From Bacteroidaceae bacterium (lineage in GTDB: Bacteria; Bacteroidota; Bacteroidia; Bacteroidales; Bacteroidaceae), in NCBI GenBank assembly GCA_017470525.1, contig JAFUYM010000069.1:1-37035 (forward strand): a stretch of DNA of 37,035 nucleotides, in the 5' to 3' direction. Numbering within the stretch: position 1 is the first letter of the stretch; each line of letters starts with the position of its first letter. Made by a program: the position numbers and the translations under genes. The notes below the pieces were generated by a model. It saw only the letters and a list, made by a program, of their open reading frames with translations, had not been told where the DNA came from and did not search any database. This document shows positions 1 to 36,915 of this stretch, in pieces.

Positions 1-336
1 CAAGAAAGACCTATTTTTATTGTTTTTATCTATTTTTCTCTTAACATAGTTATTGGGAGCGTTGCCCCAAGTGTTTTTCTTTCGTCCGCCGAAGGCGATA
101 ACTACACATGAATAGGACAAAATTATCTTTTCTTAAAAAGAGATGGCACAAGATGTGATGAAAAGGGCGATTTCTTGAGTTTTCCTCAAAAAACGTGTAA
201 TTGTTTTAATGATAGGTGGTTGCAGAAAAATGGGCACCCAGCGCGAAATGACAGGCGCTGGGTGCTCGTAATTTTATGCGCTGAGTGCGTCAAATGACAC
301 GCGCTGGGTGCGCATATAGGAAAATATTGACATCGG
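1..336 (-). repeat. Element A copy 1 (left edge, cut by window)
   Basis: This copy reads on the minus strand. Its 5' end (about 336) faces the 3' end of purN, some 60 bases away. It holds the three 23-bp units and terminator hairpin (226-313), a conserved AT-rich stretch with ATAGGACAAAATTAT near 112-127, and one arm of the long inverted repeat ending in the CGTCCGCCGAAGGCGATAA block (86-104). The other arm would lie left of the window. Between the arms it has its own short hairpin around 50-75 that the other copies lack. It is homologous along most of its length to 6442-6849, 14791-15171 and 36322-36674. Confidence 0.85.
226..268 (-). terminator. Element A1 terminator hairpin
   Basis: Reading the minus strand, GAGCACCCAGCGC, a 10-base loop and GCGCTGGGTGCCC form the stem, followed by five T. 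One A-C mismatch breaks the second base pair. It lies about 130 bases beyond the purN stop and would serve as the purN terminator. Confidence 0.65.
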
Positions 337-6373: not shown

Positions 6374-6406
6374 ATTGGAGGTGCTTCCAGGTGGGGCACC
6401 TCCAAT
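6374..6406 (+). terminator. Terminator of the large secreted-protein gene
   Basis: ATTGGAGGTGC and GCACCTCCAAT form a perfect 11-bp stem 57 bases after the stop, with a short T-rich tail. Confidence 0.75.
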
Positions 6407-6441: not shown

Positions 6442-6849
6442 CAGTTCGGGATGGAAGCGCCGATGTCAATATTCTCCTATATGCGCACCCAGCGCGTATG
6501 ATTTGGCGCACTCAGCGCATAAAATTACGGGCACCCAGCGCCTGTCATTTCGCGCTGGGTGCCCGTTTTTTTGCAAGCATCTATCATTAAAACAATTACA
6601 TGCTTTTGGAGGAAAAGACGAGGAATCGGCTTTTTCATTGCATCTTGTGCCATTTCTTTTTGAGGAAGGATAATTTTGTCCTATTCATTTGTTGTTATCG
6701 CCTTCGGCGGACGAAAGAAAAACAGAAAAAAATAGATAAAAATAATAAAAATAGGTCTTTCTTGTTTCATTTCTGTTAGACGAAGAACATGTTTTTCTCT
6801 GTTTTTCTCTATTTTTCTCTGTTTTTTCTTCGTCCGCCGAAGGCGATAA
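6442..6849 (+). repeat. Element A copy 2 (most complete)
   Basis: The element starts near CAGTTCGGGA (6442), a start shared with copy 5. It has three 23-bp units at 6483, 6506 and 6529, then the terminator hairpin. A conserved AT-rich stretch follows (6572-6694). Last comes a long inverted repeat: TTATCGCCTTCGGCGGACGA at 6695 and its complement ending at 6849. The arms carry A-tracts spaced about 10 bases apart, and CGCCTTCGGCG forms a UUCG-capped hairpin. It lies 3' of the large secreted-protein gene in the same orientation and between convergent genes. ORFs crossing it are judged noncoding. Confidence 0.88.
6527..6572 (+). terminator. Element A2 terminator hairpin
   Basis: ACGGGCACCCAGCGC, a 10-base loop and GCGCTGGGTGCCCGT make a perfect 15-bp stem followed by seven T. 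It is a textbook intrinsic terminator lying behind the gene's own terminator at 6374. Confidence 0.88.
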
Positions 6850-6900
6850 TCCCTCATTCATGTTTACAAACTTCCTCCTCACGCAATACGGATAAAATCA

Positions 6901-13784: not shown

Positions 13785-14828
13785 ATGTTACTCTCCGTCA
13801 TTGTTCCTGCATACAACGTGGAAAGGTATCTTCCGCGTTGCCTTGAGTCGTTGCTCCGGCAAGGGCTGGGGGCAGGGGAGTACGAGATCATCTGCGTGAA
13901 CGACGGGTCGTCCGACAACTCCGCACTGGTGCTGACGGACTATGTGTCGCTTTATCCCAACATCATCCGTGTGCTCCACCAGCGGCACCAGGGGCTGGCT
14001 CATGCCCGCAATGCAGGCGTGGCGGCGGCTCGGGGCGAGTACATCGCATTCGTCGATAGCGACGACTATGTGGTGGAGGATGCCTACCGCTACCTGCTCG
14101 ACCACTTCTGCGGGCGGAAGCCCGACGTGGTGATGTTCGACCATCAGGAGGTGCACACCTACGTGCTGGGCGACTTCGTGGAGCACGAGCACCTGACCGA
14201 GGGGGAGGCTGTCTTCGAGGGCAAGTTCTGCGAGGCGAAACTCCTGTCCGACACGATGGCAGTGTGGTCGAAACTCTATCGCCGCGCCTTCCTCCAGAAG
14301 CACGGAATCAGTTTCCAGCCCATCTTCTGCGAAGATTTAATATACAACTTCCAAGTGTTTCAGAAACAGCCGTATATGGTTCGCACCAATTGCATGGTCT
14401 ATTACTTCGAGCAGCAGCACGAGGCATCGCTCATCCACGAGCGGAGGAAGGACCTGGTGAAGGTGCAGTTGGGCGACCTCCTCTATGGCATACAGGTGAT
14501 GAACACCTACCTGCAGGAGGGGCACACCCTGCTGGCAACGCTTGCCCGCGAGAACGTCAGCGCCTTCGTCCGCCGCTTCTGCCAGAAACTCTTCTCCTCC
14601 TTCTACACGAGGCGCGAGTGGAGCCTGTATGTGGGCAGGCTGCGCCAGTTGCCCATCCACACGGTCTCCGACGCCATGGAGCAGACCGCGCTGGGCAAGG
14701 GCATCGTGCGCCTCTACAACCTTTCCCTGCGTTCCTATCCCGAGTATCTGCTTGTCTGGCTCATCCACCGGGCATTTTTCCGAAAGAACAATTTTGTCCT
14801 ACGTCCGCACTCAGCGCGTATGATTTGA
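13785..14828 (+). CDS. Family 2 glycosyltransferase, paralog 3, ending in element A
   Basis: This GT2 enzyme of 347 residues has VIVPAYNVE (5-13), CVNDGSSDNS (37-46), AHARNAG (72-78), VDSDD (90-94) and FCEDLIYNF. It matches paralogs 1 and 2 up to about residue 335. The last eleven residues and the TGA are encoded by the first bases of element A copy 3 (from about 14791), so the natural C-terminus was replaced when the element arrived. The lost end is short and beyond the catalytic domain, so activity is probably kept. The same element supplies its only terminator. Confidence 0.9.
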   Translation: MLLSVIVPAYNVERYLPRCLESLLRQGLGAGEYEIICVNDGSSDNSALVLTDYVSLYPNIIRVLHQRHQGLAHARNAGVAAARGEYIAFVDSDDYVVEDAYRYLLDHFCGRKPDVVMFDHQEVHTYVLGDFVEHEHLTEGEAVFEGKFCEAKLLSDTMAVWSKLYRRAFLQKHGISFQPIFCEDLIYNFQVFQKQPYMVRTNCMVYYFEQQHEASLIHERRKDLVKVQLGDLLYGIQVMNTYLQEGHTLLATLARENVSAFVRRFCQKLFSSFYTRREWSLYVGRLRQLPIHTVSDAMEQTALGKGIVRLYNLSLRSYPEYLLVWLIHRAFFRKNNFVLRPHSARMI

Positions 14829-15171
14829 CGCACTCAGCGGATAAGATTACGAGCACCCAGCGCCTGTCATTTCGCGCTGGGTGCTCTGTTTTTTGCAAGC
14901 ATCTATCATTAAAACAATTACACGCTTTTTGAGGGAAACATGCGGAATCGACTTTTTCATTGCATCTTGTGCCATTTCTTTTTGAGAAAGGATAATTTTG
15001 TCCTATTCATGTGTGGTTATCGCCTTCGGCGGACGAAAGAAAAACAGAGAAAAATAGATAAAAACAATAAAAATAGGTTTTTCTTGTTTCATTTCTGTTA
15101 GACGAAGAACATGTTTTTCTCTGTTTTTATCTATTTTTCTCTGTTTTTCTTTCGTCCGCCGAAGGCGATAA
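14791..15171 (+). repeat. Element A copy 3 (fused to the end of glycosyltransferase 3)
   Basis: The copy has three 23-bp units from about 14805, the terminator at 14851, the AT-rich conserved stretch, and the long inverted repeat from TTATCGCC (15017) to GGCGATAA (15171). It keeps the gene-proximal polarity of the other copies. Its left boundary lies inside the reading frame of glycosyltransferase 3. Confidence 0.88.
14851..14894 (+). terminator. Element A3 terminator of glycosyltransferase 3
   Basis: GAGCACCCAGCGC, a 10-base loop and GCGCTGGGTGCTC make a 13-bp stem followed by a T run. Relative to copy 2, the second pair has changed from G-C to A-T on both sides. Confidence 0.88.
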
Positions 15172-15580: not shown

Positions 15581-18500
15581 ATGAAGGTGAAGAAACATCT
15601 ATCAACTGTCATCGTGGCATGCGCAGCAGCCCTGATGCTGGCTGGTTGTAGCGATTATGACAATGGATACACCGAAGCGAAACTGAAGTTCATCAGCGAC
15701 TTCCAGGAAGCCTTTGGCGACATCGACCCCGAGCAGGACTGGAACCTCGCCGAGCGTTCCACCGTGACCGTCTCCACACTGAAGGCGTCCGAAATCAAAA
15801 TCTATGCCCTCATGGGCAATGAATACTGCATCGTGGGTGACTACACAGATGTTTCAGGCACACAGATATTGGGCTTCGACATGCTGGAAGGTGTGGAAAC
15901 CATCCTCGTCAGCAACGGAGAGTCCGCCGAGGTGACTGTCCCTGGCGGCGTGGTCGTGTTCGACGGAACGAGGTCAACGCGTACCACCTATACTTCCAAC
16001 AACGGCACTGTCAGCGTGTCGCAAATCACCAATCCCAACGGCGTGACCATCGGCACAACGACCTATCCCCAGTGGCTCTATGCCACCAAGGCGGAAACGG
16101 ATGCCATGAAGGCGGTGGTGCCTGAAATCGGACACCGCGACACCTACACCAACCTGAACAACGTGACGCACGACTTCACCTATGTGTCTAACGGTGCATT
16201 CGTCATTTATCCATATTATTTCCAGACAAGTTCTGTCAACACCATCGGCGTGTATTATTATGAAGGTAACACGCGCAAGGAGGTGGACATCTACACCATC
16301 AGAGGCAATGACCTGCAATATGAGAATGCATTGAGCGGCACGAGCACCAATGTCATCAATGAGGTGGCAGAAGAAACTGGCTGGACCATCAGCAATGGAG
16401 CCAACGTGGCATACAACACATGGTCAACCGAGAACGACCAATCGGGCATGGTCACCCCATTCCTCCAGTATTGGCAGTCGTATGGCAATTACCTTCCAAA
16501 TGCCACAATTTCCAAGACATTCACGGGCTTGGAGCCCGGCACTTATAAACTGACGGTGAATGCCCGCGTTTTCAATGAACGCAACGCCAGCGCATACCCT
16601 TCAGGTGTCACCCTCTTTGCCAACGACAAGTCTGCGACCATTCCTGCTGACGACCAAACCACTTCGGCGGTGTATAACAGCACCAGTGCCGAAATCTATG
16701 GCAACCTTTGGCTGGATAACATCACCGTAGGTGCTGACGGCGAACTCACCGTCGGCTTCCAGACAAACAACATGGTGGGTAACTGGCTGGCATGGAAGAA
16801 CCTGAAAATCGACAAGAAGGGCGACTGGGTAAGTGTAACCGCCGACAATATGGGCAGTGCCAAGCAAGATGTGCGCCGTGGTCAAGGCATCGTGGTCAAC
16901 ATCCCCGCTGGCACCAAGTTCGGCATGTACCTGAAGACAGGTGACCGCAATAACCCCGACAACCAATACTTCTCCGAGAGCGAACTGAACGACCCGAACG
17001 TGGTGGGTGCAGGTGTGACCGACGACGGACTCAATACCAGCGAATCTGTGAAGCAAGTGGCTGGTCTCCATCCCTGCTACGCATCCACTTTCCATGCAGG
17101 CGGTCAGATGTTCCTGGGTTTCGAAGACTGGCCTAACACCGCCAACGAGAGCGACTTCGACCTCAATGACGTGGTGCTCGCCTTCAGCGGTGCCACACCG
17201 ACCATCGTCAACGAAGACCCACAGCCGGCAGCCACATGGATGCTTGCCTGTGAGGACTTGGGCGGCACGTTCGACACCGACTACAACGACGTGGTGCTGA
17301 AAATTGAGCACGTCAGCGGACAGGAGTTCGCCATCGTCACCCCTCTGGCAGCAGGTGGTACACTTGCCAGTTACATCTTCAATGTGCCCGAAAGCGGTGC
17401 AGAGACCTGCCTCGGCGAAATCCACCAACTCTTCGGTGCCGGCTCGGAGGTGAGCGGCTCATACACTCCTATCAACGTGGGCTATTCGCGTGGCAATGCC
17501 GGTTCGTCCGTCACCATCCAAGTGAAGAAAGACTGGTCGATGGCATACTACAGCACCAACACCTACGGACAGGGTACGGCTGGCAAAAACATGGGCGGCT
17601 TCGAAATCCGCACGATGCCCATCGGCACCCAGGCTCCAACTGGAACCCCCACTTTGGCAACCATCGTCAATTCGGGTGCATCGCGCATCCCCGCCCCAGA
17701 CATGGGCGAGGCTCCCTACATCATCTGTCTGCCATACTCATACATAGATATGGATGTGCCTTCAACAGGCTATCAGACAGAGACCGTATGGGCATGGCCA
17801 CAGGAATTCATCCACATCACCGACGATGACAACGGCGGTCAGGGCTGCTATCCTAATTTCAGGTACTGGGTGACCAACCACTACTCAAGCGGAACTTGGT
17901 ACAAGACCAAACGAAACGGCGCCCTCACGGTGGAGGAACTCAAGTATGTGACTCAGTATGCCAACCAATCTGACCTGAAGGCAGTGAGAATCAATGAGAA
18001 CACTGTGATAAAGGGTCAGAGCATCAACTTGGCAAACTACTTCACCACCTCCAGTTCAGGTGCCATCACCTACGACATCGAGGATAAGGCGACAGGTGCG
18101 AAACTGACCAACCAGACGAACCTCAACGTTGCTCCGGCGTATGCAGGACAGACCATCATCACCATCCATCAGGCGGCATCGGGCAACTACGCTGCCAGCA
18201 CCATCACCTTCACGCTGAATGTGGCAGACAACACGCCTGTACGCTTCACCACCACCATCAATGGCAGCAAGTATGCCCTTGCATGCTACGAAGGACGGTT
18301 GAAAGTCGTGACAGACAATCAATGGAATGACTTCCAAAAGTGGTATATTGTTGACCCAGGCGTGCAGGAAGGATTCTTCTGGCTCTACAATGTGGCTCTT
18401 GGCAAGTACCTCACTTGCGACAAGAGCGATTCCTACAGAGATGTCTTCACAGACTATCCAAGCGGTCAGGGTGCCCGGTTCCAATACACCAGCGAAGGTT

Positions 18501-18622
18501 ATCTGGGTCCACGTGTGAACACAGCCCGATACTTTGGCGACAAGACTGCATTCGATGGCAGCGACTACATCCCATACATGGTATGTAAGCCTGAAGTGTC
18601 CTTCGTCTGGACCAAGGAATGA
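15581..18622 (+). CDS. LruC/DUF4842-type surface lipoprotein, paralog 1
   Basis: The 1013-residue lipoprotein has lipobox LAGC with Cys23, followed by SDYDN, an acidic stretch typical of surface-exported Bacteroidota lipoproteins. The N-terminal motif FGDIDPEQDWNLAE (45-58) marks DUF4842/LruC proteins. A carbohydrate-binding-like module follows (about 273-410) and resembles one in the large secreted protein upstream. The LruC core (about 435-765) holds two acidic repeats, DFDLNDVV and DTDYNDVV, that look like calcium sites. An Ig-like domain (about 803-881) and a ricin-like C-terminal domain (about 887-1013) end it. Function in the family is unknown; a role in surface matrix or glycan binding is inferred. 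It is monocistronic with its own promoter and terminator. Confidence 0.88.
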   Translation: MKVKKHLSTVIVACAAALMLAGCSDYDNGYTEAKLKFISDFQEAFGDIDPEQDWNLAERSTVTVSTLKASEIKIYALMGNEYCIVGDYTDVSGTQILGFDMLEGVETILVSNGESAEVTVPGGVVVFDGTRSTRTTYTSNNGTVSVSQITNPNGVTIGTTTYPQWLYATKAETDAMKAVVPEIGHRDTYTNLNNVTHDFTYVSNGAFVIYPYYFQTSSVNTIGVYYYEGNTRKEVDIYTIRGNDLQYENALSGTSTNVINEVAEETGWTISNGANVAYNTWSTENDQSGMVTPFLQYWQSYGNYLPNATISKTFTGLEPGTYKLTVNARVFNERNASAYPSGVTLFANDKSATIPADDQTTSAVYNSTSAEIYGNLWLDNITVGADGELTVGFQTNNMVGNWLAWKNLKIDKKGDWVSVTADNMGSAKQDVRRGQGIVVNIPAGTKFGMYLKTGDRNNPDNQYFSESELNDPNVVGAGVTDDGLNTSESVKQVAGLHPCYASTFHAGGQMFLGFEDWPNTANESDFDLNDVVLAFSGATPTIVNEDPQPAATWMLACEDLGGTFDTDYNDVVLKIEHVSGQEFAIVTPLAAGGTLASYIFNVPESGAETCLGEIHQLFGAGSEVSGSYTPINVGYSRGNAGSSVTIQVKKDWSMAYYSTNTYGQGTAGKNMGGFEIRTMPIGTQAPTGTPTLATIVNSGASRIPAPDMGEAPYIICLPYSYIDMDVPSTGYQTETVWAWPQEFIHITDDDNGGQGCYPNFRYWVTNHYSSGTWYKTKRNGALTVEELKYVTQYANQSDLKAVRINENTVIKGQSINLANYFTTSSSGAITYDIEDKATGAKLTNQTNLNVAPAYAGQTIITIHQAASGNYAASTITFTLNVADNTPVRFTTTINGSKYALACYEGRLKVVTDNQWNDFQKWYIVDPGVQEGFFWLYNVALGKYLTCDKSDSYRDVFTDYPSGQGARFQYTSEGYLGPRVNTARYFGDKTAFDGSDYIPYMVCKPEVSFVWTKE

Positions 18623-18727
18623 CAAGACACATTCCTTACCATCAATAGCCAGAATCGGCAAACTGAAATCTGAAATCGTTTATACAAATAAGATAGTTAA
18701 TAGATAGATAGATTTGATCAATTCCCC

Positions 18728-18767
18728 GGGAGATTTCCTTGTGAAAGGCGGTCTCCCTCTTTTTTTT
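18728..18767 (+). terminator. Terminator of lipoprotein 1
   Basis: GGGAGA and TCTCCC enclose an inner TCCTT/AAAGG pairing, followed by CTC and a T8 run. Confidence 0.8.
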
Positions 18768-18769
18768 GT

Positions 18770-18945
18770 CCCTTTCCCACCGCGATTCGGTGTCTCTTTA
18801 TGACAATCCACCATTGTCACAATGAGTTTTTTTCTCCACGTTACCTTCCTTTTCCTCCATGTTGCTTTCCTATATATATTTAAGGGAGGTTACAAAAGTG
18901 AAAGCAATTGTTTCATTCTGTGAAGAAGATGCTGGCAAGAAGCCG
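18770..18945. other. Gap upstream of lipoprotein 2
   Basis: No gene is supported. CACGTTACCTTCC at 18837 and CATGTTGCTTTCC at 18858 form a loose direct repeat resembling the GTTACG words before the 2045 gene. A TATATATA tract follows at about 18871. Confidence 0.4.
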
Positions 18946-18953
18946 TAACTTTG
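18946..18953 (+). promoter_or_regulatory. Promoter -7 box of lipoprotein 2
   Basis: TAACTTTG followed by CACC, about 120 bases upstream of the start; no clear -33. Confidence 0.65.
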
Positions 18954-19082
18954 CACCAAAGATAATAAAACGACATCTATTCACTATCTGTTTTCTTCAG
19001 CACAGTGAATCTATCGACTTCTATTGACCACGCGAATTGAATCAAACAAAAAAATAGGGACACTTTTAATCAAGTGAAAAAA

Positions 19083-22000
19083 ATGAAAATCAAGAGTTAT
19101 TTGACGGCACTCGTGCCAGCAGCCATCGCCGCACTCATGGCGACCGGCTGTAGTGATTATGACAATGGGTACACCGAAGCGAAACTGAAGTTCATCAAAG
19201 ATTTCCAGGAAGCCTTCGGCGACATTGACCCCGAACAGGACTGGAACCTCGCCGAGCGAGCCACTGTGACGGTCAACGTATCGACACCCTCGGAAATCAA
19301 GATTTATGCCCTCAGGGGCGAGGAATACTGCATCGTGGGCGACTACGAGAACGTCAGCGGCTCACAGGTGCTGGGCTTCGACATGCTGGAAGGCACGGAG
19401 AGTGTGCTCGTCAGCGACGGCAAGACAGGACAGGTGGTGATGCCCGGAAGCGTCGTTGTGTTCGACGCTACGCGCTCAACCCGCACCGTATATGGCGGCA
19501 ACGGAACCGTGCAAATCAACAAAATCACCCAATCCAACGGCGTGACCATTGGCAGCACGACTTATCCGCAATATCTGGAGGCTGATGCCGATGACTATGA
19601 GGCAATGAAGGCGGTGATTCCTGAAATCGGCTACCGCAAGAATTACACCAACCTCAACAACGTGACCCATGACTTCACCTACCGCTCCACCGGCAAATTC
19701 ATCATCTACCCCTACTATTGGGAAACCAGTTCCGACAACACCATCGGCATCTATTATTATGACAATAGCGGCAACCGGCAGGAGGTGGACATCTACACCA
19801 TCAAGGGAGGTGACGAACTGCAGTACCGCCCGCAGCAAGTGACCTCGACGCAATCCATGAGTTGGGCTAATGCCACTACCACGGGCAACTCTCAAATATG
19901 GAAAGATTGGCATGCCATGGTTTGGACCAAAGGCTATGACAACCTGATTAAGAACTTAGGCTTGCCCAACGGCAATCTGCTGGAGCGTTTCACCGATGTG
20001 ACCATCCAGTGCACGATGAAGAAACAGACTCCGGGCATCCGTCTGGTCTTCTATAAGAGTGACGGCACCAACAAGTGGGTGGACATTGCCAATCCTCACC
20101 CCTCTGACGACGGAGAGGAGACGGTCACCACATCTGTCAACCTGCAGTCGCTCGTCAATCAGGACGCAACCTGGAGAGACTATCTGCAAAACTGCTCGGA
20201 AGTCTGCATCGCGGGCAGCCAGAACGAAAGCAACGGCGCGTTCACCGCTGGCAACGGCACAACAGGAGTGTATGGCGACGTCATCATCGACAAGGTGGAT
20301 TTCGAGTGGAGAAGTTCAGGCACCAGCTGGCAGAACTACACGCAGAACTTCTGCTCTGAAATCTTCACCGTGTATGGCAGCGACATGATGCGCGGTCAGG
20401 GCATCGTCATCGACATCCCTGAGGGCACCATGTTCGGCATGTACCTGAAGAAGGGCGACCACAACAATCCCACCCACACTTTCTATTCTGAAAGTTCGCT
20501 CAACACGCCCAGCGTGTGCGGCAATGGTGTGACGGACGACGGACAGGGCAACGTGACCGAAGTGCCAGGACTCCGCCCATGCTACGCCTCCACCTTCAAG
20601 GTCAATGCGCTTAACGGACAGATGTTCCTGGGCTTTGAAGACTGGCCTAACGATGCCAACATGAGCGATTTCGACCTCAACGACGTGGTGTTTGCCTTCA
20701 GCGGCGCCACACCCACCGTCGTCAATGAAGACCCCGAACCTGCTGCCTCATGGATGCTTGCCTGCGAGGACTTGGGCGGCACGTTCGACACCGACTACAA
20801 CGACGTGGTGCTCAAGATAACGCACATCAGCGGACAGACCACTGCCACACTCACGCCACTGGCAGCCGGCGGTACACTTGCCAGTTACATTTTCCATGTG
20901 CCGAAAAGCGGGGCAGAGACCTGCTTCGGAGAAATCCACCAACTCTTCGGCGACGGCTCGGAGGTGAGTGGGTCCTACAAACCTATCAATGTGGGCAATT
21001 CACGCGGCAGCGAGGGACGCTCTGTCAATTTCACGGTGGACAAGACCTGGTCGATGGCTGCATACAGCACTGACACTTGGAGCAGCAACTCCACCACCAA
21101 CATGGGCGGCTTCGAAATCCGCACACTGCCCATCGGCACTCAGGCTCCAACGGGCACACCGACCTTAGGCACCATCATCAATTCAGGTGCATCGCGCATT
21201 CCTGCCCCAGACCTCGGCGCTGCTCCTTACATCATCTGCTTCCCATATTCTTACGTCAAGATGAACACTCCTTCCGTCGGCAAGAAGACCGAAATCGTCT
21301 GGGCATGGCCACAGGAGTTCATCCACATCACCGACTGTTACCCTGATTTCCAATACTGGGTGACCGACCACAAAACCAATGGCGAATGGTACAAGAACAA
21401 GAGAGACTATGCCCTCACGGTGTCACCTCTTGAGTTCGTGAGCGACATTGATGAGCAGAACAATAACAACAACAATACTAATAATAACAATAATAACACG
21501 CAGGGCACACAAGAGTCCAGTTTCGGCACGACCGCCACGATGACTCCTGTGCCTCGAGGCAGCAACAGCGGCTACATGTGGCGCGATGGCGATGACCACC
21601 TCAACCTCTACATGGTGGAAGACCAAGTGCTCGAAGTGTCTCCATACGCCTACAACACCACTGGTGCCATCACCCTCAAATCGTTCGATGCCGGCGGCAC
21701 GGGAACTTCATACACGCTCTCAAGCAATACCGACCTGAACCTCGGCAAAGTCACCATCACCGCACATGCCTACTCTCAATCAGGCACAGTGAGAATGGTG
21801 CTCCACTACGCTGGCGACGCCACTTATAAGGAGAAAGACATCACCATCACCATCAATGTGGCATCGACCAACAGAGTGAAACTCACCACCAACGGCAAGT
21901 CTCTCGTGTACAGCAACGACGGCACCAACGACAGACTCTACCTCGATCCCAACAATTCACAGTTCTGGGTGTTTGAACAATGTCCAGGCGACACAGGCTA

Positions 22001-22274
22001 TTATTACCTGTACAATGAATCACTGGGCAAGTATCTGCGACTGGGCACAGAAAACACTTGGTCGCCAATCTTCACCGACGCGGTGCCAATCAACGATGCC
22101 AGAGGCAAGTTCAGACTCGACAGTGGCAAGATACAATGCAAGTACAACAACGGCTACCTTGGAAGCACAGGGAACGATAATGGCTACGTCTATCTGAACA
22201 AATCGAGTGGCGACGGCATTGTATGGACTTTGGGTTATAACGCCAAGCAGCGCAATGCCAAGGCACGGAAGTAA
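19083..22274 (+). CDS. LruC/DUF4842-type surface lipoprotein, paralog 2
   Basis: The 1063-residue lipoprotein uses ATG 19083, which puts the lipobox cysteine (ATGC) at residue 23 as in both paralogs; the GTG at 19074 would shift it by three. It keeps SDYDNGYTE and FGDIDPEQDWNLAE. Where paralog 1 has a jelly-roll-like module, this one (about 256-410) carries a module related to the duplicated N-terminal module of the large secreted protein (NLGLPNG, then RLVFYK). The LruC core (about 439-746) has DFDLNDVV and DTDYNDVV. A poly-asparagine linker (793-805) leads to Ig-like and ricin-like C-terminal domains. The two paralogs are very similar outside the swapped module. Confidence 0.88.
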   Translation: MKIKSYLTALVPAAIAALMATGCSDYDNGYTEAKLKFIKDFQEAFGDIDPEQDWNLAERATVTVNVSTPSEIKIYALRGEEYCIVGDYENVSGSQVLGFDMLEGTESVLVSDGKTGQVVMPGSVVVFDATRSTRTVYGGNGTVQINKITQSNGVTIGSTTYPQYLEADADDYEAMKAVIPEIGYRKNYTNLNNVTHDFTYRSTGKFIIYPYYWETSSDNTIGIYYYDNSGNRQEVDIYTIKGGDELQYRPQQVTSTQSMSWANATTTGNSQIWKDWHAMVWTKGYDNLIKNLGLPNGNLLERFTDVTIQCTMKKQTPGIRLVFYKSDGTNKWVDIANPHPSDDGEETVTTSVNLQSLVNQDATWRDYLQNCSEVCIAGSQNESNGAFTAGNGTTGVYGDVIIDKVDFEWRSSGTSWQNYTQNFCSEIFTVYGSDMMRGQGIVIDIPEGTMFGMYLKKGDHNNPTHTFYSESSLNTPSVCGNGVTDDGQGNVTEVPGLRPCYASTFKVNALNGQMFLGFEDWPNDANMSDFDLNDVVFAFSGATPTVVNEDPEPAASWMLACEDLGGTFDTDYNDVVLKITHISGQTTATLTPLAAGGTLASYIFHVPKSGAETCFGEIHQLFGDGSEVSGSYKPINVGNSRGSEGRSVNFTVDKTWSMAAYSTDTWSSNSTTNMGGFEIRTLPIGTQAPTGTPTLGTIINSGASRIPAPDLGAAPYIICFPYSYVKMNTPSVGKKTEIVWAWPQEFIHITDCYPDFQYWVTDHKTNGEWYKNKRDYALTVSPLEFVSDIDEQNNNNNNTNNNNNNTQGTQESSFGTTATMTPVPRGSNSGYMWRDGDDHLNLYMVEDQVLEVSPYAYNTTGAITLKSFDAGGTGTSYTLSSNTDLNLGKVTITAHAYSQSGTVRMVLHYAGDATYKEKDITITINVASTNRVKLTTNGKSLVYSNDGTNDRLYLDPNNSQFWVFEQCPGDTGYYYLYNESLGKYLRLGTENTWSPIFTDAVPINDARGKFRLDSGKIQCKYNNGYLGSTGNDNGYVYLNKSSGDGIVWTLGYNAKQRNAKARK
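21459..21497 (+). repeat. Asparagine-codon microsatellite in lipoprotein 2
   Basis: Thirteen codons, twelve of them AAC or AAT and one ACT, encode an Asn linker between the LruC core and the Ig-like domain. Length change here would stay in frame. Confidence 0.9.
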
Positions 22275-22323
22275 AGCGAAAAGGCTTTTCTAAGCAGCAA
22301 TAACATCTTGATTTTCATTTATT

Positions 22324-22372
22324 CCCGAAGGAGGGACGAACCTTGGTGGTTCGTCCCTCCTTCCTTTTCGGG
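22324..22372 (+). terminator. Terminator of lipoprotein 2
   Basis: A perfect 16-bp stem (22327-22342 with 22348-22363; core GGGACGAACC/GGTTCGTCCC) lies within an outer CCCG/CGGG pairing. The T tract is weak. Confidence 0.8.
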
Positions 22373-22502
22373 TTCTTACACATTATTATATATATAAGGT
22401 TATATAGGTGGCTGAACTTTCGGAAGTGATAGCATGTAGAGTGAACATTTTCGTTGCTTTTGAATCTTTATCGCCATTTTTTCACTTTTTTTATGTGAAA
22501 TA
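22373..22502. other. Gap upstream of lipoprotein 3
   Basis: No gene is supported. It is AT-rich, with a TATATATA tract at about 22388 and AACTTTCGGAAGT at about 22416, the short motif also found beside several inverted repeats in this window. Confidence 0.4.
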
Positions 22503-22534
22503 TTTGGAATCTGAAAAAGAAAGTATTAACTTTG
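22503..22534 (+). promoter_or_regulatory. Promoter of lipoprotein 3
   Basis: TTTG (22503-22506), 20 bases, TAACTTTG (22527-22534): a full match. The leader is long, about 209 bases. Confidence 0.8.
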
Positions 22535-22749
22535 CACATTAAGTGTAGTGCAGTCAGCACACGCACGAAATCTTATACTTGTGCAGGAGAAAGCCAATCA
22601 AAAGGAAAAATAGGTACTTAACCGTCCAACCTGCCAAACACCGAACGAACCGATGGATATGAAAGGAATCTGAGGAATGGAAAGACAGACCATGTCAAGG
22701 TAAAAGACATTAATAACACATACGAATTAACAATTTAACAGATAAAACA

Positions 22750-25587
22750 ATGAAGAAGAAACATTTACTTTCATTCCTTGTTCCCGTGGCAGCGGCGTTG
22801 CTGACACTGGTGGGATGTAGCGACTATGACAATGATTTCGGCTCATTCGACTACGAGTACAAGAAAGGTTTTGTCGAAGCATTTGGTGAAATCGACGAAG
22901 AGCAGGACTGGAACCTCGCCGAGCGTTCCACGGTGACCGTGACCACGTCGAGTGCCAAGGACATCAAGATTTATTCTGAGGAGGAAGGCACCTACACGCT
23001 GTTGGCGAACTATCGCGGCATCAGCGGCACCGAGACCTTGTCGTTCGACATCCTGGAAGGCGTCAAGACCATCATCGTGAGCAACGGAGAGACTGCGCTG
23101 AGATCGTTTGTGGGCGGCAGCGTGTCGTTCGACGACATGACTTCTTCGGCTGGTGAAGAACTCGACACCCGTCAGGAAAACGTGAACCGCAACGAATGGG
23201 CTGCACAATATGTCTTGCCAGGCAACGTGACCCAATCGGAAATTGCGAAAGTGAAGGCTGCCTTCAGCCAGCCACACTACGGGGCGGTGAACACCATCTA
23301 CCTGCCTTGGAATGAAATGTGGGTGCAGCATGTATATAAAGGAGAAAGCACCTATCTGAACGGCTTCCTCAAGAACATCGGTGTGGCAAGCGACCAGATG
23401 AACCATCTGCTCATCTACAACAAGGGCAACAAGACCGAGGAAGGCGACGGACTTCCCAACTTCGAGCATATCAACGACTTCAATAGTGGCAAACAAAATG
23501 CCAACTACAGCGATGAACTGAACAATATCATCGGCACAACACTGATGCACAGCATCAACCCCGAAGGTTGCCCAACAGAACAGGTGACCACCGTGACGGG
23601 TGAGACCGTGACACAGGTGAAGCAGTTTGCTTACCACAACACGCAGGACAGCAAGTATCACTTTGAATACATCTACAAAGTGGTGGACGGCAATCTCTAC
23701 ATCGGCTTCGACTTCTACGCACACGGCACAGACAACCAGCCAACCAACAAGAACATGGACGTGGAACGCGACTGGATTTTCAATGACTGGATTATCAAGG
23801 TGAGCAAGGCGGTGTCAAAGAGCGGAGTCACACAGTCCGTTCTTCAGAGCGCGAAGGCTAACGCTTGGATTCTGGCAGCAGAGGATATGGGTAGCACCGA
23901 CGATATCGACTACAACGACGTGGTGGTGAAGGTGCAGCACACTGCTGGCAACAATTACCTGACTGTCACTCCTCTGGCAGCAGGCGGTACTTTGGCTTCC
24001 TACCTCTACTTCAACGACGAATGCATCGGTGAGATTCACCAATTAATGGGTGCAGCACCTGCCATCAGCGGACAATATCCCGTGCTCAATGTCGGCGCCA
24101 CAAGCGCCAAGGGTAGCCGCGTAACAGTCTATAATGTAAACGCCAACTGGTCTCTCTCTTGCTACAGCGTCACCGATTGGGACACTTCATCGCAAGGTTC
24201 AAGGAACATGGGTGGATTCACCATCCGAGTGTTGCCTTCAGGCACACCCGCAGCCGACAAGAAACTGCCTATCGGCAGCAGTCTCTTCGGCAGCAGCAAG
24301 ACATCTATCATACAAGGTCCTAATCCTGGCGATGCACCTTACATCCTTTGCGTTCCTTTCTCTTACCAAAAGGGCAATACACCCAGTGCAGGCAAGAAGA
24401 CCACCTACACATGGGCATGGCCAAACGAACGTAGATATATCGTGAATGCCTATACAGCCTTCGGTGGATGGGTGAACAACCACAACAGCAACAAAGACTG
24501 GTACACTCAACCCAATTCCAGTTATGTCTTCAACACTGCCGCTGCTGGCGCGCCAGAAGAGGTGCAGCCTGTGGAAGAAACTATGACATCTGAGGAAGTT
24601 GCGGCAACCAATGAGGCTTATGCCAACATTGTGCAAGTGAAGGAATATGCTTCACAGAGCGCACCTGAAGGCATTCTGAAACTCAAGGACGGAATCACCA
24701 CCATCAACGTGGATGTGAACCAAGTCTTCGACATCCTCGACTACATTGACACCAACTATCCTGTTTATTGTACTTCTTCCAGCGAAGGTGAAGTCAAAAA
24801 TGTGAATGGCTCACAAACTGTCATGCAGTCCTTCATTGCAGACAAGCAAACCGTCATCACCATCCAGCAACAGGCTATCGACCACAAGACCATTCAGGTG
24901 ACAGTTGTTACGGGTAATAGCGTTAGTCCTCAAAAGCCTGAAGCATCCATCTCTCTCAGCGACAACAGTAGCATGGAAGAAGGCAGCACAAAGACAGTGA
25001 CTATCAACACCAACAGTACAGGAGCGATTTCAGCCTCTACACAGAATGGCGGTATATTCAATGTTTCTGTTAATAATAAGACTCTTTCTATCACTGCTCT
25101 GCAAGCAGGTAATGACAACATCATCATCCATCAGGAAGCAGACGATAACTATGCGGAAACTTACGCATACTTCTCGATGACAGCGACAGAAAAGGCTGGA
25201 AATCCGGAAGAAGGACCGCAAGACAATAATATCAGCCTTGATGGGGCTACGCTCTTGAGCAGAACAAAGAGGGGTGAATATGCTCTCGACATAGAAGATG
25301 GTTCTATCTCTGGCACATATAATGTGAGGTACAACGGCAATATCATTAAGTCCAATGTAACATCTCTCACATTGATTTGGAGAGGTAACTATGTAAACTA
25401 TGGAGGTCCTGATATTGAAAAGAGTACAGCCATGAGGTCGAATGGAGGTGAATACAATTCAACGATTGGTACAACAAAAGATGGTTCATATATAATCTAC
25501 AATCTCAACAAATTCCAGCCATATCAGGCACGTACGATTTATGTATATGCTACGGATGGAAGCACAATGTACTTGTATGTCAAATAG
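22750..25587 (+). CDS. LruC/DUF4842-type surface lipoprotein, paralog 3
   Basis: The 945-residue lipoprotein has lipobox LVGC (Cys23) followed by SDYDND, and FGEIDEEQDWNLAERSTVTV near the N-terminus. It is the most diverged of the three. The central LruC region keeps IGFDFYAHG, then WILAAEDMGSTDDIDYNDVVVK (about 372-393) and TPLAAGGTLASY, but lacks the paralogs' DFDLNDVV copy. Two Ig-like segments follow, then a C-terminal module (about 830-945) found in neither neighbour. The DNA from about 25200 on is more AT-rich than the rest, suggesting that this last module has another origin. It has its own promoter and terminator. Confidence 0.87.
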   Translation: MKKKHLLSFLVPVAAALLTLVGCSDYDNDFGSFDYEYKKGFVEAFGEIDEEQDWNLAERSTVTVTTSSAKDIKIYSEEEGTYTLLANYRGISGTETLSFDILEGVKTIIVSNGETALRSFVGGSVSFDDMTSSAGEELDTRQENVNRNEWAAQYVLPGNVTQSEIAKVKAAFSQPHYGAVNTIYLPWNEMWVQHVYKGESTYLNGFLKNIGVASDQMNHLLIYNKGNKTEEGDGLPNFEHINDFNSGKQNANYSDELNNIIGTTLMHSINPEGCPTEQVTTVTGETVTQVKQFAYHNTQDSKYHFEYIYKVVDGNLYIGFDFYAHGTDNQPTNKNMDVERDWIFNDWIIKVSKAVSKSGVTQSVLQSAKANAWILAAEDMGSTDDIDYNDVVVKVQHTAGNNYLTVTPLAAGGTLASYLYFNDECIGEIHQLMGAAPAISGQYPVLNVGATSAKGSRVTVYNVNANWSLSCYSVTDWDTSSQGSRNMGGFTIRVLPSGTPAADKKLPIGSSLFGSSKTSIIQGPNPGDAPYILCVPFSYQKGNTPSAGKKTTYTWAWPNERRYIVNAYTAFGGWVNNHNSNKDWYTQPNSSYVFNTAAAGAPEEVQPVEETMTSEEVAATNEAYANIVQVKEYASQSAPEGILKLKDGITTINVDVNQVFDILDYIDTNYPVYCTSSSEGEVKNVNGSQTVMQSFIADKQTVITIQQQAIDHKTIQVTVVTGNSVSPQKPEASISLSDNSSMEEGSTKTVTINTNSTGAISASTQNGGIFNVSVNNKTLSITALQAGNDNIIIHQEADDNYAETYAYFSMTATEKAGNPEEGPQDNNISLDGATLLSRTKRGEYALDIEDGSISGTYNVRYNGNIIKSNVTSLTLIWRGNYVNYGGPDIEKSTAMRSNGGEYNSTIGTTKDGSYIIYNLNKFQPYQARTIYVYATDGSTMYLYVK

Positions 25588-26741: not shown

Positions 26742-26835
26742 GAACACGAATTGCACGAATCTTACGGTATCTTTAGCCGGGGTAGTTAAAAATCCGTCTG
26801 AAAAAGATTTCGTGAGATTCGTGCAATTCGTGTTC
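26742..26835. terminator. Perfect 21-bp inverted repeat after the exchanger gene
   Basis: Bases 26742-26762 and 26815-26835 are perfect complements (starting GAACACGAATTGCACG) around a 52-base loop. It probably ends the exchanger transcript, though the loop is long for an intrinsic terminator. The arms begin with the same GAACACGAA as the terminator at 12284. Confidence 0.6.
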
Positions 26836-26919: not shown

Positions 26920-27140
26920 ATGTCAATTTCTTCCTATATGCGCACTCAGCGCATGTGATTTGGAGCACCTTGCTCATAATATTACGCGCACCCAGCGCCT
27001 GTCATTTCAGGCTGGGTGCGCATTTTTTTGCAATCTTCTGTTCCACCGACAATTAGGCTTTCTGCAATAAAATTGTGAGAGAAACGGCATTTCTTTTCAT
27101 CGATTGAAATATTCTGAAAAAGAAATCAATTTTGTCCTAT
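26920..27140 (+). repeat. Element A copy 4 (degenerate)
   Basis: It starts at TGTCAATTTC and TATATGCGC, keeps three 23-bp units from about 26940 and the terminator hairpin. The rest can be aligned to the other copies only loosely, down to AATTTTGTCCTAT (27128-27140). The long inverted repeat is missing. It lies 3' of the exchanger gene in the same orientation. This seems to be an old copy in which only the hairpin part has been kept. Confidence 0.75.
26986..27029 (+). terminator. Element A4 terminator hairpin
   Basis: GCGCACCCAGC pairs with GCTGGGTGCGC and is followed by A and seven T. The second pair is C-G here, against G-C in copy 2 and A-T in copy 3. Confidence 0.85.
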
Positions 27141-32747: not shown

Positions 32748-33083
32748 GTCATCAGGCGGTTCCTGGAAAGAAATTGGAAATAATTAGAATTTTAAGTTTC
32801 GGAAGTTCCTTTTTTTACCGCGAAGCGGCCTTTAGAAAAACAAGAAAAAACAAAATAAAACAAGAAAAAACAAGATACATTCTTCATCATGTTGACTATA
32901 TTACATAAATTGCTCACGCTCGACAAAACGAAAACGAGTTCTCGTTTAATCGCAATTTTCTTTTATGTTTTTTTATTTTTTCTTGTTTTTCTAAAGGCGC
33001 GAAGCGTAATAAACACTTCCGAAAACTTAAAATTCTAATTATTCCTATTTCCTTTCCCTAAAACCGCGAAGCAACCTGATGAC
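32748..33083. repeat. Element B copy 1: long imperfect inverted repeat
   Basis: The two halves of this 336-base stretch are complementary in blocks: GTCATCAGG with CCTGATGAC at the ends; AATTAGAATTTTAAG with CTTAAAATTCTAATT; CTTTCGGAAGT-like words; CGCGAAGCG; and CCTTTAGAAAAACAAG with its complement near 32985. The arms consist of A-tracts about 10 bases apart. The centre has ATTCTTCATCAT, also present in copy 2. It separates two same-strand secreted-protein genes. Confidence 0.8.
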
Positions 33084-36321: not shown

Positions 36322-36674
36322 TTATCGCCTTCGGCGGACGAAAGAAAGACCTGTTTTTCTCTATTTTTATTGTTTTTATCTATTTTTTTCTGTTTTTTCT
36401 TCGTCCGCCGAAGGCGACAACCACACACCAATAGGACAAAATTATCCTTCCTCAAAAAGAAATGGCACAAGATGTGATGAAAAAGCTGATTCCGCATGTT
36501 TTCCTCAAAAAGCATGTAATTGTTTTTAATGATAGATGCTTGCAGAAAAACGGGCACTCAGCGTGAAATGACAGGCGCTGGGTGCCCGTAATTTTATGCG
36601 CTGAGTGCGCCAAATCATACGCGCTGGGTGCGCCTATAGGAGAATATTGACATCGGCGATTCTATCCCGAACTG
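36322..36674 (-). repeat. Element A copy 5
   Basis: The minus-strand copy begins near CAGTTCGGGA (36674, reverse strand). It has three 23-bp units and the hairpin (36545-36589), the conserved AT-rich stretch and a compact long inverted repeat (36322-36420). Its gene-proximal end faces the minus-strand gene that enters from the right edge, consistent with the polarity of the other copies. Confidence 0.87.
36545..36589 (-). terminator. Element A5 terminator hairpin
   Basis: Minus strand ACGGGCACCCAGCGC, a 10-base loop, ACGCTGAGTGCCCG, then five T. Two mismatches weaken the stem. The changed 3' arm pairs better with the middle 23-bp unit, which has CACTCAGCG. Confidence 0.65.
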
Positions 36675-36777: not shown

Positions 36778-36915
36778 CGCGTCTTTAGAAAAACCATAAA
36801 AAACCAAAGAAAACCTCAAAAAACCAATATTCTTCATCATTATTAAAGAACTTGATTAACCGAATATTGTTTTTTATGGTTTTTTATGGTTTTTTATGGT
36901 TTTTCAAAGACCGCG
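36778..36915. repeat. Element B copy 2: inverted repeat with 10-bp periodic arms
   Basis: CGCGTCTTTAGAAAAACCAT at the left is complementary to the block ending GACCGCG at 36915. The right arm has three exact 10-base units TTTTTATGGT (36871-36900). The centre has ATTCTTCATCAT as in copy 1, and CTTTCGGAAGTT lies just outside (about 36752). Confidence 0.8.

Follow-up and report, generated by a model that had tools for sequence, protein, structure and literature searches.

M1, a lineage-restricted interspersed repeat of uncultured Bacteroidales that lies near gene ends and bears a terminator-like hairpin

REP and BIME sequences are extragenic palindromes present in many copies, and in DNA uptake sequence pairs inverted copies of one site make terminators at gene ends. 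Such uptake sequence pairs are mentioned as terminators in an account of pneumococcal repeats (PMC3049150). The same account describes the SPRITE repeat of Streptococcus pneumoniae as having about 30 copies per genome, a terminator-like hairpin, a location near CDS 3' ends and enrichment between convergent genes, with no target duplication demonstrated, and reports that pneumococcal repeats follow the coding strand bias (PMC3049150); repeats of the pneumococcal genome also cluster with one another (PMC10969869). BrickBuilt of Porphyromonas gingivalis consists of 1 to 22.8 tandem 23-nt units without spacers together with a leader and a tail, is always intergenic, occurs in 19 copies, has a narrow host range and carries terminal inverted repeats like those of ISPg1 and ISPg9 (PMC4596501).

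The repeat examined here, M1, is a lineage-restricted family of this known kind, interspersed and bearing a hairpin that resembles a terminator, with SPRITE-like placement and BrickBuilt-like 23-nt units. Its likeness to SPRITE, judged by description, extends to copy number, hairpin, gene-end placement, enrichment between convergent genes (modest in M1) and the absence of any demonstrated target duplication, but SPRITE combines high AT content with a duplex of 18 bp and a long U-rich tract, whereas M1 is built of three phased 23-nt units between two boxes. The host of SPRITE belongs to a different organism group from the M1 hosts, while Porphyromonas gingivalis belongs to the same bacterial order as they do. 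M1 shares with BrickBuilt, again by description, the tandem 23-nt units and a narrow host range, and differs from it in having mostly three units, a terminator-like hairpin and no parent IS that we could find; by eye, the 12-nt BrickBuilt ends (PMC4596501) do not resemble the M1 boxes. Like REP/BIME sequences M1 is extragenic, palindromic and present in many copies, but no RAYT-like gene was found beside it, and as in uptake sequence pairs one site recurs in it in inverted form; arrays of this site turned up at a few tens of locations. Because the defining features of MITEs and REPs were either not established or not found, we file M1 under neither class. A literature search that largely excluded subscription journals found no paper on the M1 repeat.

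The window, the whole stretch of 37,035 nucleotides that was analysed, is one contig (C13) of a 3.24-Mb genome of a Bacteroidaceae bacterium in 83 contigs, about 83% complete (hereafter the home genome). It holds the following features.

112..329, minus strand: M1 copy 1, downstream of purN
6467..6684, plus strand: full-length M1 copy 2 of 218 bp, with every part from the left box through the three units, hairpin and spacer to the right box
14789..15006, plus strand: M1 copy 3, overlapping the 3' end of a glycosyltransferase gene
26924..27140, plus strand: M1 copy 4, without M2
36431..36649, minus strand: M1 copy 5
1..111, no strand assigned: altered M2, cut by the contig edge
6695..6849, no strand assigned: M2, a separate long inverted repeat with 57-nt arms and 41 nt between them
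15017..15171, no strand assigned: M2
36322..36420, no strand assigned: M2, short form
6467..6481, plus strand: left box CAATATTCTCCTATA of copy 2, a weak palindrome
6483..6505, plus strand: 23-nt unit 1 of copy 2
6506..6528, plus strand: 23-nt unit 2 of copy 2
6529..6551, plus strand: 23-nt unit 3 of copy 2, the hairpin 5' arm plus 10-nt loop
6552..6572, plus strand: inverted half-unit (hairpin 3' arm) and T-run of copy 2
6573..6666, plus strand: spacer of copy 2, nearly constant in length, with little conservation in the second half
6667..6684, plus strand: right box AGGATAATTTTGTCCTAT of copy 2, an imperfect palindrome

The first-pass annotation had treated the five copies as one composite element of fixed order. 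The order of units, hairpin, T-run and AT-rich stretch is indeed shared, but the composite splits into separable parts. The repeats themselves are real, far beyond chance: a search of the home genome with positions 6442-6860 returned 67 matches, the second-ranked at E 1.8e-160, and beyond a few that span the query these cover either about positions 19-175 or about 254-408 of it. Searching with M1 only gave 39 matches, of which 26 are long (E about 6e-24 or better); the total includes weak ones on C11, C45 and C80:14828, and about 26 are full copies. Searching with M2 only gave 72 matches, many of them both arms or both strands of one place, and M2 was found without M1. M2 or its remains lie behind seven M1 copies, four of them on the window contig. 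Among relatives, M2 matched in 11 of 40, three of which have both repeats; G013, G014 and G020 matched M2 24, 37 and 8 times and did not match M1 at all. We therefore reject a single composite element: what had been described is the neighbourhood of two independent repeats, separable in the home genome and in relatives, and M2, roughly 155 bp long, is an independent family that trails M1 in a recently multiplied sub-lineage. The long inverted repeat assigned to three full copies corresponds to M2, which is entire at 6695-6849 and 15017-15171, shortened at 36322-36420, and altered and cut at the contig edge beside copy 1. Its ends were thought to be UUCG-capped; instead, GCCTTCGGC stands at both ends, and these form the base of the long stem in the fold.

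The window is dense in M1, with five of the approximately 26 full copies of a 3.24-Mb genome lying within 37 kb, and holds other repeated sequence besides. Positions 1581-1733 contain a 44-nt inverted repeat (98% complementary) with CGATAATT motifs, and similar sequence adjoins M1-related sites on C29 and C53. At 36778-36915 and 32828-32998 are long, AT-rich inverted repeats that contain repeated A-tracts and are M2-like in design, with other GC-rich ends, and a 33-nt inverted repeat (GAACACGAATTGCACGAATC) at 26742-26835 lies directly upstream of M1 copy 4. Within genes, a direct repeat at 2130-2834 (405-bp spacing, 92% identity across 300 nt) falls in a gene of 1423 aa, and three large consecutive genes at 15581-25587 (1013, 1066 and 945 aa) have long DNA stretches in common.

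M1 is a 218-bp module in which two related boxes enclose the units and the hairpin, in the order box CAATATTCTCCTATA, three 23-nt units, inverted half-unit, T-run, spacer and box AATTTTGTCCTAT. Each unit consists of GCGCACYCAGCGC and an AT-rich 10-nt spacer, and the inverted half-unit closes a hairpin of 13-14 bp. The two ends of the module nearly repeat each other in direct orientation and, since the box is partly palindromic, can also form a weak inverted-repeat pairing. The 12-mer ATTTTGTCCTAT from the right box has 27 exact matches in the 83%-complete home genome (reversed control, 0): 23 of these boxes end M1 copies, one ends a one-unit form and three belong to orphan 3' halves. The one-unit copy, on C10, is shorter, and two of the three sites with the 3' half alone are on nearly identical contigs and are perhaps an assembly duplicate. 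The home genome also holds a second M1 sub-family of seven weaker copies.

The length of M1 is more constant than its sequence. Among the 25 complete copies, a set that leaves out one M1 truncated at a contig start, the one-unit form and the orphan forms, 19 measure 218 bp, five 217 and one 219, with seven single-column gaps inside M1 in their alignment. This length is kept across about 45 poorly conserved base pairs: the AT-rich stretch that the first-pass annotation took to be conserved is only 40-48% identical at columns 165-210, and it is its length and the closing box that are maintained. Near-exact length in a loosely conserved sequence is a testable puzzle. One answer would be that M1 is a DNA-level array for protein binding, in which four copies of one 11-bp site (three direct, one inverted) and two boxes at near-fixed distance form a nucleoprotein complex with a recombinase or a nucleoid protein. 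The fixed length would fit, as would the fact that C/T at position 5 is a frequent variant in all four sites. However, the right box departs from the 16-bp palindrome AGGAYAAWWTTRTCCT at 0-2 positions in 23 of the 25 copies whereas the left box departs at 3-5 in 23 of 25, the core in relatives (units and hairpin) sits in other flanks, themselves separable repeats, with no fixed length seen, and a one-unit version exists. Moreover, one non-M1 site in 350 kb (L204) matches the palindrome at two mismatches, and no protein partner was found. We regard such an array as unlikely.

The core of M1 was found in eight of 60 relatives, all of one genus, and gave no match in 24 other genera, each searched in one genome. 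The hosts are a few uncultured kin of Prevotella. An exact-pattern scan of a genome collection described as covering 84,980 species returned 13 stretches from six assemblies titled as uncultured Prevotellaceae, Bacteroidaceae or Bacteroidales (RUG204, RUG242, RUG418, RUG13218, RUI029 and Reindeer_1_mag_61), where RUG denotes rumen genomes. One such scan of viral contigs gave no match, and a phage or virus carrier is not supported. The TAATATTAC motif is present in relatives.

To place M1 relative to genes, we used 62 copies with 6-14 kb of surrounding sequence (the full 37 kb in the case of the window), a home-made hexamer-model gene caller and predicted tRNAs; flanking regions had been selected because they contain M1, and the relatives are represented by 28 regions of known contig extent, a subset of their copies. 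Setting aside nine copies that lack a neighbour, 53 divide into 23 sense tandem (+,+), 14 antisense tandem (-,-), 12 convergent and four divergent cases. M1 and the gene upstream of it share a strand in 41 of 60 cases (p 0.003). As convergent cases are uninformative on orientation, the tandem ratio of 23:14 is the appropriate test (one-sided p 0.09); by group it is 10:3 for the full-length copies of the home genome (p 0.046), 2:4 for its second sub-family and 11:7 for relatives. M1 occupies 12 of 31 convergent gaps and four of 32 divergent ones (p 0.02), and 13 of the 41 same-strand copies start at most 40 nt from the stop codon. Two tRNA genes (Lys, Leu) also lie upstream of M1 on the same strand. 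The M2 loci looked at (n = 20) comprise 12 tandem, two convergent, two divergent and four incomplete contexts. Computationally, then, M1 has a site preference, and its preference for 3' ends is real but modest.

The rule that the repeat always lies in the gene's orientation thus fails in the wider sample, with its antisense tandem copies and its four copies between divergent genes. In the window, the terminator end was said to face a gene's 3' end in all five copies; the upstream gene could be verified for four, and the supposed gene at the right edge is unsupported because the gene calls end to the left of copy 5. The stop codon of the glycosyltransferase gene (14828) falls within M1 copy 3, which therefore supplies the last codons of that gene.

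The hairpin stem is maintained, as computed from an alignment of 55 of the 62 copies. It covaries by three of five measures, with 43 cells changed on both sides against 16.3 in shuffles (reached by none of 500) and 91.3% of stem cells paired against 86.3% in shuffles and 20-49% when slid, a percentage raised by the omission of seven copies (L219, L220, L226, L237, L241, L242 and L243, six of them with at least three detector mismatches). The other two measures are unremarkable: pairs with double changes number 5 against 3.4 (31/500) and pair types 11 against 11.2 (413/500). In 12 of 40 distinct copies from relatives unit 3 is changed and most of the outer stem lost; in a thirteenth changed copy (L104) the altered unit 3 is matched by an altered closing arm, so that the stem is re-paired.

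The first-pass annotation also offered an RNA processed from mRNA ends. A 3'-end element of this sort, processed from the mRNA or protecting its end, would be gene-oriented, as the frequent same-strand upstream genes might suggest, and the hairpins are stable in the fold. None of the tests run favours it, however. Of the 37 tandem copies 14 are antisense, and Rfam at gathering score gave no match in the window and only tRNAs at 16 other loci. Wobble pairs in the stem are more often A.C than G.T (60 vs 19 in one count, 55 vs 26 in another), and on the sense strand G.U is not favoured over A.C (21 vs 48; shuffles 34.8 vs 61.8). Selection on the opposite strand was considered from these wobble pairs and rejected; column make-up explains most of the bias in shuffles, so we draw no strand from the stem pairs. 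An mRNA 3'-end element is improbable.

Whether the hairpin terminates transcription can be approached through predicted terminators. Our own detector, which calls an intrinsic stem plus T-run, accepted 38 of 62 copies in the sense and 16 of 62 in the antisense direction; the rest fail, and the T-run is weak in relatives (e.g. GTCTTTGATG). An antisense terminator scored in seven of 14 antisense-lying copies against eight of 41 same-strand ones (one-sided p 0.03), four of the seven being of one sub-family. Where a gene end faces M1, another terminator was predicted in 19 of 68 cases, as compared with 59 of 129 where M1 is missing (p 0.02, one detector; the shuffled control for this comparison gave 16/129, but its stretches ran to as much as 400 nt and the real ones to about 270). 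This apparent deficit is an artefact of the shorter stretch that can be searched between gene ends and M1, since controls at equal room predict 18.2 +/- 3.4. With the deficit gone, replacement of terminators by M1 comes down to one locus, where the gene end in G003 has an ordinary 16-bp hairpin and T-run and the syntenic position in G010 is taken by an M1 in reverse orientation, with a hairpin and then a T-rich stretch in gene direction.

These results bear on the possibility that M1 is a selfish insertion only, that is, a passive miniature mobile element that is tolerated downstream of genes and purged elsewhere, with a hairpin that serves movement rather than termination. Fewer copies in divergent gaps, no terminator deficit at equal room and stems changed in relatives would all be expected, as would copies sitting behind existing terminators: an independent terminator is predicted ahead of 14 of the 41 same-strand copies, and the 2045 gene in the window has its own strong predicted terminator ahead of M1 (-23.0 kcal/mol, hairpin at about 6377-6403). 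A similar reading is offered for pneumococcal repeats (PMC3049150). The compensatory stem changes speak against it, although arm conversion could also yield them, as does the terminator swap between G010 and G003. We hold selfish insertion to be a serious possibility that falls somewhat short of being probable.

M1 also appears to be mobile, as its dispersal and the turnover of its sites suggest. It is dispersed in one genome at high identity. The purN copy of the home genome has no M1 core at any of 15 relatives' purN loci (by detector and downstream sequence; at least one locus ends early), which indicates that sites turn over, yet some species pairs share an M1 at orthologous positions (G017/G026, G010/G011, G006/G026). 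At three of the relatives' purN 3' ends (L137, L139, L141) other repeat-like sequence of the CACAGATT type, with inverted partners, takes the place that M1 has in the home genome. At L216/L234, L221/L225 and L086/L185 the nucleotide alignment between species ends at or shortly behind M1, as if at a breakpoint. By eye, no target duplication is evident in the M1 flanks, and the relatives looked at offered no clean empty site. The mobile noncoding 3' element of the first-pass annotation thus stands in so far as M1 is mobile, or at least turning over, and commoner at gene 3' ends; it is the strict orientation rule that falls.

As to what would move it, no transposase was found beside M1 and, with exact right boxes as the guide in the 83%-complete home genome, we found no transposase-encoding long version, which would have marked the copies as ordinary miniature transposons. 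The paralogous genes between M1 and an orphan 3' half on C29 were considered as such a version, and one paralog compared with Pfam matched no family. A REP/RAYT system with a Y1 (HUH) transposase would suit a palindromic, extragenic repeat in tens of copies, and the home genome has one Y1_Tnp match, of 26 bits. No Y1 transposase flanked by the repeat was found, though, in 16 genomes: at 10 loci no M1 array lies within about 1.5 kb of the Y1 match, and four of nine searched M1-bearing genomes (G002, G010, G011, G033) have no Y1_Tnp match. This system is very doubtful for M1. An undescribed mobile system, in which four phased recombinase sites and two boxes at near-exact distance would form a DNA loop moved in trans, with the hairpin as a two-way host terminator, is also hard to credit.

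The reading we favour, with moderate confidence, is that M1 is a small noncoding, lineage-restricted interspersed repeat that spreads and persists chiefly behind genes, a place in which the hairpin can be used as an intrinsic terminator. It would spread by movement in trans and be retained where the hairpin may act to end transcription; some copies may terminate from either side, one direction being served by the T-run after the inverted half-unit and the opposite one by the complementary strand of the second, AT-rich spacer. Termination by M1, like its mobility, is what we infer. If this reading is true, terminator-carrying interspersed repeats would extend from pneumococcus to uncultured Bacteroidales, and a gene end that has an ordinary terminator in one species while its counterpart elsewhere has M1 would be a natural test of whether mobile repeats are taken over as terminators.
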